From Parcubacteria group bacterium GW2011_GWD2_42_14 (lineage in GTDB: Bacteria > Patescibacteriota > Minisyncoccia > Phycocordibacterales > UBA12088): 36,544 nucleotides of DNA. The stretch is taken from contig LCCS01000003.1 of NCBI GenBank assembly GCA_000998045.1, forward strand, positions 1-36,544, read 5' to 3'. Shown in pieces: positions 1,090-15,800 of this stretch (positions within the stretch are counted from its first letter, which is position 1; each line of letters starts with the position of its first letter). A model generated the notes under the pieces. That model was not told the origin of the DNA. It did not search any database and was given only the letters and a program-made list of their open reading frames with translations. Both the position numbers and the translations under genes were made by a program.

Positions 1090-1641
1090 TTACTTAGTTT
1101 CTTCAGCTGGAGTTTCCTCAGAAGCAAGTGCTGGTTCGACAGGTATTTCCTCCTTGCTCGCTGTAGCTTCAGCGGAGGCGAGTTCTTCCATCCGTTTCTT
1201 TTCTGCCTCCTCTGTAGCAACCTTGGCAGATGCCTCTTTTACAATACGCTCCTTTTCAGTAGTATCAGACTCAATAGAGGTACCCATCGCAAATGCCTTA
1301 CGCATCGCACGACGAATCTCCTTAGTAGCCTTTTCTCGAATATAGTACAATTTCGCTCGTCGAACCTTTGTTCGCTTCACAATCTCAATCTTATCAATCA
1401 TTGGAGAATAGAGTGGAAATGTCTTTTCTACACCTACCCCACTTGCAACCTTACGCACCGTGAATGTTGCTCCTGCTTCTGTACCGTGTTTAACCATAAG
1501 TACAAGACCCTCAAAAACCTGAAGGCGAACTTTTCCTTTTTCTTTGATTTTTTGTGTCACACGCACAGTATCGCCTGAGCGAACGCCAAGCTCTTTTCGT
1601 GCTTCAATGTTTACTGGTGAAATGACTTCTTGTGTGGTCAT
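1090..1641 (-). CDS. rplS: 50S ribosomal protein L19 with acidic C-terminal tail
   Basis: L19 sits at the 30S-50S interface in the large subunit. Residues 1 to about 115 match the L19 fold: the [20 protein letters not shown] segment, EGLVL, the [12 protein letters not shown] segment and the basic [11 protein letters not shown] region. The start at MTTQEV is chosen because it is the family start; the frame stays open upstream, but that stretch is hairpin-rich and non-protein-like. The product is 183 aa, about 65 aa longer than typical L19. The extra tail is rich in Glu, Ala and Lys and looks disordered. No neighbour overlaps it, and it seems to have its own leader (1642-1830). Confidence 0.93.
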
Positions 1642-1830
1642 AGTGCGGGGTACTGTACCACAAGGATGAGCCCCGTGCAAATGCGAAAAGTTGAATGTTA
1701 TAAAGTTCATAAAGCATGCCCCGTACCAAGTCACGCATGACTTTGGTACTGGGGTTGAAAGCTTGCCCCGCTGTGGAGGGGTGAAAGCCCTGTACCGAGC
1801 TATGTTTCTTACCAAGCTGTAAAAGTCTAA
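1642..1830 (-). promoter_or_regulatory. Hairpin-rich leader upstream of rplS
   Basis: On the minus strand this leader contains GGTAC...GTACC bounded structure, a CCAAAGTCA/TGACTTGG hairpin with a four-base loop, and two direct repeats of the type GCTTTCA(A)CCCC. A -10-like TACAGT lies 10 nt before the rplS ATG. The region could be an autoregulatory r-protein leader or a cluster of REP hairpins; the sequence alone does not decide. Confidence 0.35.
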
Positions 1831-2593: not shown

Positions 2594-3643
2594 TTACATG
2601 GGAGGTGTCTCTATAGTACCAGCTACGCGAGCAACCTTCTCAACAAGTGCCACAAGAATGCCTTTTGATGTATCGTCGAGAGGAAGACTCCGAGCAATAC
2701 TTCGTGCATTTTCAATATACGTATGGGCGTATGCCTCTGTCGCCTCACGCGCTCCTGATTTTTCAAAAATATTCACAACCTCACGAACCTCATCCTCAGT
2801 AAGGGTTTCTTTCTTTTCATAGAGTGCTGTGAGGCGCGTGGCATCTCCATGGTCTCTGGCAAATAGTGCAGGGTATGTTTTCTTTCGTTCTATGATATCT
2901 CCATAGGCTCTTTTACCCGTTGCACCAGTTTCTTCCCAGATAGACACATGGTCATCTACAATTTGATACGCAAGACCGAGTGATTCTCCGTACGTAAAAA
3001 GTTTCTGCACTACCTCATCATCACATCCTGCCGACATCCCACCCGCAGACGCTGCAGCGCCCACGAGAACTGCAGTTTTCTTACGTATCATTTCTAGGTA
3101 CGCTTCAGGAGTCACAAGAGGGTCATGGAGCGCATACTTCGTGAGTTCAAAGTCAAGATACTGCCCTTCGCATATCTCTAGGAAGTACTGAGTCAAGAGC
3201 TGCGCAGTGGCTACCCCATACACTGCATCTTTACGCGCAGCTTCAAGAAGGACCTGATTGGTAAGGAGAAGCTGAGCGTCGCCCGAGTTAATACCATGAT
3301 CCTTCCCCCACAGCTTCCAAAGTGTCGGTTGACCACGGCGCATTTCATCATTATCGACTATATCATCATGAATAAGTGTAAAGTTGTGAAAAAGTTCAAC
3401 AGCAGCGGCGAAATCTACAGCAACTGAAGAACCTCCAAAAAGTTTCGCAGTGAGGAGGAGGAGTGACGAACGGGTACGCTTGCCATGAGTGCCTTGTGTA
3501 GGATGACGCAAGTCGTTGCCATACCCCATAAAATACCGAAGCATGTGATACATCGGCAAGCTCCCTGCCTCATGCAGAAGCTGTTCTATTTTCGCATCAA
3601 CTCGCACACTCTCCTCTTGTAAAAATGTTTGCATATCAATCAT
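2594..3643 (-). CDS. Polyprenyl diphosphate synthase (trans-isoprenyl synthase)
   Basis: Condenses isopentenyl diphosphate onto allylic diphosphates to make the long-chain carrier precursor. The first aspartate-rich motif is intact (LIHDDIVDND, then RRGQPT). The second is DDHVS, lacking the final Asp of the usual DDxxD. The start is placed at MIDMQTF, whose ATG lies 1 nt after the uppS stop; a longer frame would overlap uppS by 32 nt. Product about 349 aa. Directly follows uppS, which uses prenyl diphosphates to make undecaprenyl diphosphate, so the operon is a lipid-carrier module. Chain length cannot be read reliably here. Confidence 0.88.
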   Translation of the reverse strand: MIDMQTFLQEESVRVDAKIEQLLHEAGSLPMYHMLRYFMGYGNDLRHPTQGTHGKRTRSSLLLLTAKLFGGSSVAVDFAAAVELFHNFTLIHDDIVDNDEMRRGQPTLWKLWGKDHGINSGDAQLLLTNQVLLEAARKDAVYGVATAQLLTQYFLEICEGQYLDFELTKYALHDPLVTPEAYLEMIRKKTAVLVGAAASAGGMSAGCDDEVVQKLFTYGESLGLAYQIVDDHVSIWEETGATGKRAYGDIIERKKTYPALFARDHGDATRLTALYEKKETLTEDEVREVVNIFEKSGAREATEAYAHTYIENARSIARSLPLDDTSKGILVALVEKVARVAGTIETPPM

Positions 3644-9484: not shown

Positions 9485-10021
9485 TTACCGAGCACTACAG
9501 AGTAGATCAATCTGACCCTTCCATGTATCCGCACTCCCTTCATCCACGGTAAACGTTGCACTCGCTATGGTTGCTACGTACGGCATATGCTCCAAGAGCG
9601 ACATAAAGTGATACAGTGATTTCCATGATCCCTCTACAAAAAGGACGACTTTCATATTATCACCAACACTCTTGCCCTCATCGGCACTCACTGGATCAAT
9701 AGAGATTGCTTCCACCTCTAACGTGACTCCTGCGTCCTTTCCAAGTGTTTCAACAAGCTCAAGAAACGGGGTGGGATCCTCTTCAGAGATGAAATATGAA
9801 GCGATTTCTTCACGTCCTGCTTTGGTCCTGTTGAGCAAGGCTTCTGTTTCAAGCTTGTGTGCCTCAAGCGTATCAACGACAGACAATTCAGAAGTAATCT
9901 CCGAAAGCTTATCTTGTAAAACAGCTATATGCTTAAACAAAAACACATATCCAGCACAAACCAGTAGAAAGATACTCAATGCGAAAAAAGCTATTTTTTG
10001 TGATTTGGTAATATGCTTCAT
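9485..10021 (-). CDS. pilO: Type IV pilus inner-membrane assembly protein PilO
   Basis: PilO forms the inner-membrane alignment complex with PilN and PilM. The 178-aa product has a short cytoplasmic N-terminus, one membrane helix (IAFFALSIFLLVCAGYVFLF), a periplasmic coiled coil (about residues 30-65), and an alpha/beta ferredoxin-like domain including VVLFVEGSWKSLYHFMSLLE, a typical PilO motif region. Its ATG overlaps the pilN stop by one base (TAATG), so the two are translationally coupled. Confidence 0.85.
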   Translation of the reverse strand: MKHITKSQKIAFFALSIFLLVCAGYVFLFKHIAVLQDKLSEITSELSVVDTLEAHKLETEALLNRTKAGREEIASYFISEEDPTPFLELVETLGKDAGVTLEVEAISIDPVSADEGKSVGDNMKVVLFVEGSWKSLYHFMSLLEHMPYVATIASATFTVDEGSADTWKGQIDLLCSAR

Positions 10022-10563
10022 TATTTTTTTACATCCTCAAGAATGATTGAAAGATTGAAGTCTAAATTTGTGTTTTTGGCGAGGTTGGAGATAGGTACGG
10101 GCGCCTCTTCAAAATACTGATTTGCTTCCAGTGCGCGTGCAAAGGGTACCACTAAGTCCCTCGTTGAGGCTATTCCTTGAAGTGCGAGCACCGAATCATT
10201 ACGCTTGTAGGAAAACCCAGTGATACTTATTCCCGAAGGTCGCTCTTTAAATACCTCATCAAGCAAAGTTGTAAGTTTTTCTTGCGAATACTTTTCCTCA
10301 AGAAAAGTCAACATCAATGAACTTTGCGATACTTCTTGCACTAAAGAGCTATTGTCTTCCACATCTTTCTGATGTAGTTCGTACGTCGCTTCACGGAGAC
10401 GCAGTTCTCCCGCCACCTGCATATATGCAGGCACAAGTGCAACACAACCAACTATCACTGCACCCGCGAGGGTGAATGCTACCACTGTTGCCAGTCGTAC
10501 GTAGTACTCTCGTTCAAGTATCTTTTTTTGTTCTTTTGGAAGTAAATTTTGCAACATATACAT
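10021..10563 (-). CDS. pilN: Type IV pilus inner-membrane assembly protein PilN
   Basis: Partner of PilM and PilO. The product starts with a short cytoplasmic segment (MYMLQNLLPKEQKKILEREY) of the kind that in PilN binds PilM. One membrane helix (VVAFTLAGAVIVGCVALVPA), a coiled coil and a C-terminal small alpha/beta domain (SGISITGFSYKR, VLALQGIASTRDLVVPFARA) follow. 180 aa, typical size. It lies 9 nt after pilM and overlaps pilO. Confidence 0.85.
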   Translation of the reverse strand: MYMLQNLLPKEQKKILEREYYVRLATVVAFTLAGAVIVGCVALVPAYMQVAGELRLREATYELHQKDVEDNSSLVQEVSQSSLMLTFLEEKYSQEKLTTLLDEVFKERPSGISITGFSYKRNDSVLALQGIASTRDLVVPFARALEANQYFEEAPVPISNLAKNTNLDFNLSIILEDVKK

Positions 10564-13804: not shown

Positions 13805-14500
13805 GTGATTAAAATCTTAGATGACATATTAAGCTACAGAGAGATGTGTGATGCTGAGAACACTCAGACAATGCAAAGAGGGATGAATTATCGCATGAAC
13901 CCTACATATTCGGTTTTTCTTATGTCTCAAAAACCAAATGCGCCCTATTCGGATAGTGTGCATAACGATGGGGTGACCATTGAATACGAAGGGCATGATT
14001 TGGCCAAAAACTATACTGTAAATCCAAAACATGAAGATCAGCCAGAAAAATTACCAAGTGGTAAAATAACTCAAAATGGCCTCTTTATAAAAGCTGTTGA
14101 TGAATATAAAAGTAATAAATCTAAACCTGAAATAGTTAAGGTTTATGAAAAAATACAGGAAGGTGTTTGGTCGCTAAAAGGTTTTTTTAATCTTATTGAT
14201 TATAAGATTGTAAATGATGGTAAGCGTAATGTTTTTAGATTCATACTAAAACTATCAGATAGAATTGAGAATTTTAATAATCAGAATCTAAAATTAACTC
14301 ATACAAGATTAATTCCTTCGCAGATTAAAAAAGATGTATGGAAAAGAGATCAAGGAAGGTGCGTACTATGTGATGAATCAAAGAATCTACATTTTGACCA
14401 TGATTTGCCTTTTTCCAAGGGTGGGACAAGCCTCCTTGTAAACAACGTTAGATTGCTTTGTGCAAAATGTAATTTAAAAAAATCAGACAAAATTGAGTAG
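13805..14500 (+). CDS. HNH endonuclease
   Basis: A C-terminal HNH domain is clear: IPSQIKKDVWKRDQGRCVLC, then the H of LHFDHDLPFSKGG, NVRLLC, and CNLKK, giving the CxxC...CxxC zinc ligands and the His-Asn-His metal site. The 170-residue N-terminal part is not recognised. The start codon is GTG, with no clear ribosome binding site. The gene is AT-rich compared with the core genes and lies just after the tRNA-Ser tail, typical of an accessory gene. It could be a homing or restriction-type nuclease; no partner methylase is seen. Confidence 0.85.
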   Translation: MIKILDDILSYREMCDAENTQTMQRGMNYRMNPTYSVFLMSQKPNAPYSDSVHNDGVTIEYEGHDLAKNYTVNPKHEDQPEKLPSGKITQNGLFIKAVDEYKSNKSKPEIVKVYEKIQEGVWSLKGFFNLIDYKIVNDGKRNVFRFILKLSDRIENFNNQNLKLTHTRLIPSQIKKDVWKRDQGRCVLCDESKNLHFDHDLPFSKGGTSLLVNNVRLLCAKCNLKKSDKIE

Positions 14501-14604: not shown

Positions 14605-15345
14605 ATGAAAGATAAAAAAATTATTGTAGGTAGTATCTTTGGAGTAGTTGTAATTGCACTATTAGTAGTTACTCTATTCTTCTTTGCCAATAAAACCCAA
14701 ACCAAACAAGCAGTATCAACTGACAATCCCACTGATATTGTTTTAGACTTCTATGGTGACTGGTCAAACGCCGTACAATCAACGAGTACTAATCCCTACC
14801 AAGAAGGATTAGCAAAAACACCAATCTTAAGTAAAACATTGCGAGACCGACTTCTCGCGACACCTGAGAACCCAGAGATTGACCCAGTACTGTGCCAAAA
14901 CATACCACCAACAAAAGTATCGAGTAGAACAATAATTGAAGAAGCAGATACAATACAAATCCTTGTTATGTCTAAAGAACCAATACAAACTGGTCAAGCA
15001 GTTTTTATGTTGTCCCGTTTGGACGACGGTTGGTACATCGATGACATCCTATGCGCGCAAGGAGAATCCGGTACTCCTGGTGAATTTAGTTTCGCACATG
15101 AAGGAGGATTGTTTAAAAGTGTTTCCGATCAGTCCCTGCCCGACCAAGAGTATTGGAGTATTTTGTATATCCAAGATGCAAAAATGTACACCGCACGACT
15201 TCTTTTTACTGCTGACAGTATGTGCACCAATCTTGCTGGAACTGAAGCCGTATGCAACCCAGATCAATTCACAGAAACAAAGGTCCAGGTACGAGGTGAA
15301 ATGTCGGAAAATGGGGTTACGGTACAACAACTTTCATTCAATTAA
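14605..15345 (+). CDS. Membrane-anchored extracytoplasmic protein, weakly DUF3828-like
   Basis: 246 aa. A basic start and one helix (IIVGSIFGVVVIALLVVTLF) form a signal anchor; no lipobox Cys. Outside, PTDIVLDFYGDWSNAVQST followed by a PILSKTLRDRLLA segment resembles the start of DUF3828-type exported proteins. Four Cys are spaced so that two disulfides are possible (DPVLCQN, DILCAQG, SMCTNL, AVCNPD). TATACT lies 8 nt before the ATG, so a nearly leaderless mRNA is likely. Function unknown. Confidence 0.75.
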   Translation: MKDKKIIVGSIFGVVVIALLVVTLFFFANKTQTKQAVSTDNPTDIVLDFYGDWSNAVQSTSTNPYQEGLAKTPILSKTLRDRLLATPENPEIDPVLCQNIPPTKVSSRTIIEEADTIQILVMSKEPIQTGQAVFMLSRLDDGWYIDDILCAQGESGTPGEFSFAHEGGLFKSVSDQSLPDQEYWSILYIQDAKMYTARLLFTADSMCTNLAGTEAVCNPDQFTETKVQVRGEMSENGVTVQQLSFN

Positions 15346-15462: not shown

Positions 15463-15766
15463 TAACAAAAGGACCGACGATAGCAACCGCCGGTCCTCGG
15501 AGTAAAGCTCCTCACGTTTAGGATTACGAAGAGATTTTTTGATCTCACGATCTTAGTGTGTCTTCTTCGTAGATTCACAAAGCAAAACGTGCACATTTTA
15601 CCTTGTTACTCAGGAAACCTTTAGGCTCTTGTGAATCCCCTCCCCTTTGGAGGTTCTTCAGTTTGATACCAGATTAAGGTCCTTCAACCCCGTACTTACG
15701 CACGGTTTGTCCTGCTCCCTTCTTAGGGGGAATCGCTTTTGCTTTATTCGTAAAGAACTTTGCTAA
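15463..15766 (-). ncRNA. Candidate structured non-coding RNA, about 300 nt, class unknown
   Basis: Read on the minus strand, the region has its own promoter (15772-15800) and ends in a strong terminator (GGACCG/CGGTCC at 15471-15476 and 15491-15496, then CTTTTGTT). Internal structure includes a six-pair hairpin with a GUAA tetraloop (15690-15705), CCTCC-AAAG-GGGAGG, a GATC-GUGA-GATC hairpin nested in an 8-bp stem (15525-15532 with 15564-15571), and directly next to it a 9-bp long-range stem (15572-15580 with 15629-15637). GGAG/CTCC precedes the terminator. No RNase P CR-I/CR-V, tmRNA ends or SRP GGAAGCAGC motif was found. It follows purN on the same strand but is more likely independent. Confidence 0.65.
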
Positions 15767-15771
15767 CAAGA

Positions 15772-15800
15772 AATATATATTATTCCAGATAACAGAGCAA
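15772..15800 (-). promoter_or_regulatory. Promoter of the candidate ncRNA
   Basis: TTGCTC (15795-15800), 17 nt, TATATT (15772-15777) on the minus strand. Predicted start near 15765, after the purN stop. Confidence 0.55.

Follow-up and report, generated by a model that had tools for sequence, protein, structure and literature searches.

On the minus strand of the window, by which we mean the whole 36,544-nt stretch of DNA analysed here, lies the gene of a free-standing RNA that is very probably a paralogue of domain I of 23S rRNA (roughly H14 to H22), here termed RNA-I. The preliminary description had regarded this RNA as an orphan, a view that did not survive: it has a family across Patescibacteria (at least 14 loci in at least 13 genomes, window included; at least 13 further free-standing relatives), with members in the order of the window and as far away as Gracilibacteria, Yanofskybacteria and Moraniibacteriota. 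This kind of RNA is not represented in Rfam, and no ncRNA family of bacteria is known to us in which a domain of rRNA exists as a conserved, free-standing paralogue. Searches of the open-access literature, which did not extend to subscription papers and preprints, likewise turned up none. If the identification is true, an rRNA domain can turn into a separate gene with a life of its own. The features of the locus are given below in the direction of transcription, with helix numbers (H14, H16, H18–H22) that we take to follow the E. coli 23S structure.

15772–15800, minus strand: promoter candidate TTGCTC-17-TATATT, called from sequence, weak alone and supported at the family level
15466–15770, minus strand: RNA-I, free-standing RNA very probably homologous to 23S rRNA domain I, ~300 nt with terminator
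15749–15761, minus strand: closing stem P1, 5′ strand AAAGUUCUUUACG (strand-swap test 0/100,000)
15728–15749, minus strand: conserved GAAUAAAGCAAAAGCGAUUCCC, whose counterpart in Geobacillus 23S is GAAGAAAGCAAACGCGAUUCCC
15716–15732, minus strand: H14-like hairpin UUCCC...GGGA, with the 23S loop GUAGCGGCGAGCGAA replaced
15690–15705, minus strand: H16-like hairpin CCGUGC-GUAA-GUACGG, flanked by CAAACC and GGGGUUG
15613–15682, minus strand: variable region where 23S has H18–H20
15607–15616, minus strand: UUCCUGAGUA, same as the 23S motif preceding H21
15577–15606, minus strand: H21-like hairpin, then GUGAAUC as in 23S
15525–15571, minus strand: H22-like helix UACGAAGA...UCUUCGUA with a GNRA (GUGA) hairpin inside
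15516–15524, minus strand: AUCCUAAAC, counterpart of GGCUAAAUAC in 23S
15504–15516, minus strand: closing stem P1, 3′ strand CGUGAGGAGCUUU (strand-swap test 0/100,000)
15466–15498, minus strand: intrinsic terminator, 13-pair stem (pairs 15498–15469) and U tract

RNA-I is flanked by purN (PF00551, 15837–16520) on one side and by a gene at 14605–15345 on the other; the latter is convergent, and a downstream gene on the transcribed strand is absent in the window. A structured ncRNA between purN and its neighbour, with a terminator of its own, had been proposed beforehand, and both points hold: the transcript on the minus strand (15770–15466) has a folding energy far below that of shuffled sequences (z −5.46 with the terminator, −4.87 without it), and the terminator stem forms its 13 pairs at 15498–15469. 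The proposed promoter is also present as described, with a −35 TTGCTC at 15800–15795, a spacer of 17 nt and a −10 TATATT at 15777–15772, but taken alone it is no better than chance, an equal score being reached in 31% of shuffles, and a stricter promoter scan listed none for RNA-I. When the upstream regions of 13 family members are pooled, they score 126.4 against a mean of 111.8 and a maximum of 121.8 in shuffles (n = 200), and near-consensus promoters stand at several members, among them TTGACA-17-TATAAA (G341) and TTGATA-17-TATACT (G336). The RNA-I of the window probably has its own promoter. Elsewhere in the window, an HNH endonuclease-like gene (PF01844, E 6.5e-7) lies at 13805–14500 on the plus strand, near a tRNA-Ser gene.

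The preliminary description had seen no signature of RNase P, tmRNA, SRP or 6S RNA, and the Rfam models agree, with no match to these four RNAs here or at the other member loci. At the RNA-I locus every Rfam family stays below threshold, a relaxed E-value brings up noise only, and the bacterial LSU model (LSU_rRNA_bacteria, RF02541) gives no match even at E 10 in a genome search. The suggested BLAST search of relatives was productive in part: it found one other copy, with 78% over 88 nt, in a genome of another family, and the rest of the members needed covariance models. The copy found by BLAST is similar along the whole ~310 nt and has a terminator at the same position and other neighbours. 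Model R1, built from these two free-standing RNAs, added four members in a search of 397 genomes of the order, and model R2, which was built from six free-standing RNAs (two seeds entered with loop insertions removed for alignment) and spans only the 5′ ~97 positions of RNA-I, added three more, one of them from the window's genus; E-values from these models, and from R3 below, are rough as the calibration was short. RNA-I was detected in 9 of the 397 order genomes, and its absence from most of them may reflect divergence, since diverged copies can be missed.

Named genomes were covered by a pattern scan combined with R2, which gave, among the matches listed, Ca. Gracilibacteria, Patescibacteria UBA6263, Ca. 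Yanofskybacteria and Ca. Moraniibacteriota, together with a second copy in the bin AlinenLipids_bin-6017. The two copies of this bin are diverged (L158 5290–4930 and L183 7950–7625). Family members are ~215–400 nt long, each with its own terminator. The weak R1 matches L051–L054, read by eye, and the match L187 were set aside as chance, and L005, L006 and L008 as coding sequence. Around RNA-I at the 13 other loci of the family no 23S sequence was found, the single match being a tRNA. Pattern scans of IMG/VR, plasmids and phages gave no RNA-I match, hence nothing points to descent from a virus or a mobile element.

The first off-target match of one member (G026) fell inside 23S rRNA domain I. 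This member is colinear with nt 237–530 of the 23S gene in the window's genome, and its alignment to domain I of the relatives' 23S is likewise colinear with a score of 64–70.5, shuffles having a mean of ~31 and a maximum of 57.5. Both R1 and R2, made of free-standing RNAs only, have their best 23S matches at one place, ~nt 190–400 on the sense strand, and R2 places domain I in 16 of the relatives' 22 23S loci (best 38.9 bits). On other 23S sequences R2 reaches 45.8 bits in Geobacillus, 48.8 in Leuconostoc and 50.2 in a Patescibacteria MAG, and such scores of 40–50 bits on 23S of other phyla are inflated because the loci were preselected by motif, the place still being right. In plain pairwise alignment the window RNA alone is not above chance against 23S, thus its homology rests on the family models.

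The order of the motifs is the same in both molecules: Geobacillus 23S has GAAGAAAGCAAACGCGAUUCCC..GGGAACAGCCCAAACC..GGGGUUGUAGGACC..GGAUCCUGAGUA and the window RNA-I has GAAUAAAGCAAAAGCGAUUCCC..GGGAGCAGGACAAACC..GGGGUUGAAGGACC..UUUCCUGAGUA. Like bacterial 23S (RF02541), RNA-I carries in order GAAxAAAGxAA..CGAUUCCC..GGGA, CAAACC-hairpin-GGGGUUGUAGG, CCUGAGUA, an H21-like and an H22-like element and GGCUAAA, and in the G173 member H21 and H22 are nearly as in 23S, up to CCCCCAAGGCUAAAC. Unlike 23S domain I, it is free-standing, ends in its own terminator, is closed by the new stem P1 and varies where 23S has H18–H20. The universal H14 loop GUAGCGGCGAGCGAA, present in nearly all of 30 aligned 23S sequences, is absent in all 14 RNA-I sequences, and because this loop is missing and H18–H20 are variable, some of the domain I contacts must be lost.

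RNA-I lies outside any 23S gene or rRNA operon; the real 23S of the same genome, on contig C18, is complete with its domain I intact. Four of eight other host assemblies have no 23S match, and a missing 23S is common in metagenome bins. The window RNA-I is closer to the 23S of other phyla than to that of its own genus, and GAAGAAAGxAA..CGAUUCCC is the form found both in many bacteria and in RNA-I. Since RNA-I is nearer to the 23S of other phyla than to the unusual 23S of its own genus, it is not a recent copy. The unusual form, GGUAAAAAAUCCUGGCAUUUCC in place of GAAGAAAGxAA..CGAUUCCC, occurs in the 23S of three genomes of the window's genus (G000, G003 and G001; L009, L010 and L011). A tree built on the short region largely separates RNA-I from 23S, with 5 errors of 44 in the best split and support 55, the region being too short to tell a single from a repeated origin.

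Three helices of RNA-I covary, namely P1, the H16-like hairpin and the H22-like helix. P1 is the long-range stem that had been noticed in the preliminary description, and when its 5′ and 3′ strands are swapped between members, none of 100,000 swaps is as good, with nine members and again with thirteen. For the H22-like helix a strand swap is as good in 1 of 100,000, and in the H16-like hairpin all 6 pairs are altered on both sides in some sequences. For H14 and H16 together the covariation score is 0.561, while shuffles give 0.178, none of 500 reaching the observed score, and slid versions of the structure give at most 0.143, on an alignment that had been fitted to the tested structure and so favours it. 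A lack of stem conservation in relatives had been named as a possible refutation; the stems are kept. The two tetraloop hairpins described earlier are also real features of the sequence, CCGUGC-GUAA-GUACGG and GAUC-GUGA-GAUC, and the folding z is negative for all 14 RNA-I cores.

A second free-standing piece occurs in the window's genome, where the Rfam LSU model gives a weak second match (C7:72081–72230, 37.9 bits, E 2.6e-10) sitting in another RNA with its own terminator, which we call RNA-II. RNA-II, which carries ACAGCUAAGGUCUCUAAA and ACCGAAGCUU, is a homologue of domain II of 23S. Plain alignment to its own 23S was misplaced and not significant, so the homology rests on the Rfam LSU match and on model R3, made from RNA-II, which picks up domain II of 23S in 10 of the 12 tested loci. 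RNA-II was found in three genomes, all of genus g1:

L014 (G000:C7) 1405–1760, minus strand: RNA-II
L122 (G001) 9895–10300, minus strand: RNA-II
L123 (G005) 2965–3210, minus strand: RNA-II, 106 nt shorter, matched parts otherwise identical

In the congener G001, RNA-II is directly downstream of RNA-I on the same strand, and its approximate start falls within ~200 nt of the RNA-I terminator. A BLAST match to RNA-II in G315 proved to be the real 23S. In G000 no free-standing LSU pieces were found besides RNA-I and RNA-II, and there were no extra 16S-like pieces in G000 and G026, with one 16S match in each.

As to its role, we tentatively read RNA-I as a 23S domain I paralogue that may act in trans as a mimic of domain I, which we hold to be a serious possibility. 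Descended from domain I and closed on itself by P1, it would stand in for the domain and bind the ribosomal protein(s) or assembly factor(s) predicted to recognise it, and this binding could buffer, time or guide the use of the partner during ribosome assembly. Ribosomal proteins that bind domain I include uL24, uL4, uL29, bL28 and bL34. A trans-acting mimic is the simplest reading, because residues of 23S are retained, P1 closes the RNA on itself and the genome still has an intact 23S gene. The motifs kept by RNA-I (GAUUCCC, CAAACC..GGGGUUG, CCUGAGUA, CUAAAC) are those of 23S, which suggests that partners which bind 23S may still recognise it. The complement of ribosome biogenesis factors in CPR bacteria is about half of what is usual (PMC12641178), which makes an RNA helper for ribosomes plausible, and if the mimic reading is true, RNA-I offers a handle on ribosome assembly in Patescibacteria, with so few of these factors. 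What speaks against it is that no ribosomal-protein gene is consistently next to RNA-I among the member loci; the domain I contacts that must be lost and the detection in only 9 of the 397 order genomes also weigh against it. It is quite doubtful that RNA-I and RNA-II would belong to a ribonucleoprotein of Patescibacteria that derives from the ribosome but is separate from it, in which rRNA domains that left the ribosome now work outside it.

The stable fold of domain I might instead be reused as a scaffold for trans regulation unrelated to ribosomal proteins, through another protein or through pairing via the variable region; this region (15613–15682) and the new stems would give room for a new role, and the neighbour genes differ, but the conserved residues are those of 23S rather than new ones, and we consider a scaffold rather unlikely. 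Overlapping with the mimic reading, RNA-I could be an assembly chaperone whose target is the rRNA and not the pool of proteins, a placeholder that would keep hold of domain I proteins, or guard against misfolding, until domain I of 23S has been made. Homology to domain I, the fewer biogenesis factors in CPR (PMC12641178) and the frequent insertions in CPR rRNA genes (PMC11270868) would fit such a chaperone, whereas the patchy detection of RNA-I does not, and we hold it to be unlikely. The least credible account is a decaying 23S pseudogene or an assembly artefact: metagenome assemblies can misplace rRNA fragments, yet the sequence is diverged with compensatory changes in its helices, which contradicts a decaying pseudogene, and the members have their own terminators in many independent assemblies, leaving hardly any likelihood for either.

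Two known systems bear on the remaining alternatives. Fragmented rRNAs, as in Chlamydomonas mitochondria, have separate genes for LSU rRNA pieces (PMC8660880), and RNA-I and RNA-II resemble them in this respect; in G001 the domain II homologue RNA-II even comes immediately behind RNA-I, the order that the domains have in rRNA. That the two belong to a second large-subunit rRNA, fragmented and at work in a part of the ribosomes, is nonetheless improbable, as a complete 23S is also present, the pieces cover only domain I and, in the single genus g1, domain II, G000 has no further free-standing LSU piece, pieces adding up to a whole LSU rRNA were not found, and RNA-I is self-closed by P1 without the GUAGCGGCGAGCGAA loop. 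Ribosomal-protein leaders are cis regulators that mimic rRNA, 5′ of ribosomal-protein genes (e.g. PMC7247131), with which RNA-I possibly shares the principle of an RNA that resembles rRNA to a ribosomal protein. RNA-I is not a member of this class: it has its own terminator, is very probably homologous to a whole rRNA subdomain and would act in trans, and no ribosomal-protein gene lies downstream of it, with the exception of an S1-domain protein gene in G027. A cis-acting leader or attenuator of a downstream gene could be imagined from G026, where a 72-aa ORF starts ~15–20 nt past the terminator tract, and from G132, where an RNase H gene follows RNA-I; it is very improbable given that both in the window and in G341 RNA-I is followed by a convergent gene and that downstream genes vary by locus.

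The neighbour genes of RNA-I differ between loci apart from dnaX, which adjoins it in two distant genomes (L158 5319–6356; L236 248–1846), downstream in one and divergent in the other. In three genomes RNA-I is preceded, on its own strand, by a tRNA gene (L168 3773–3845, L203 784–856, L100 1648–1719).
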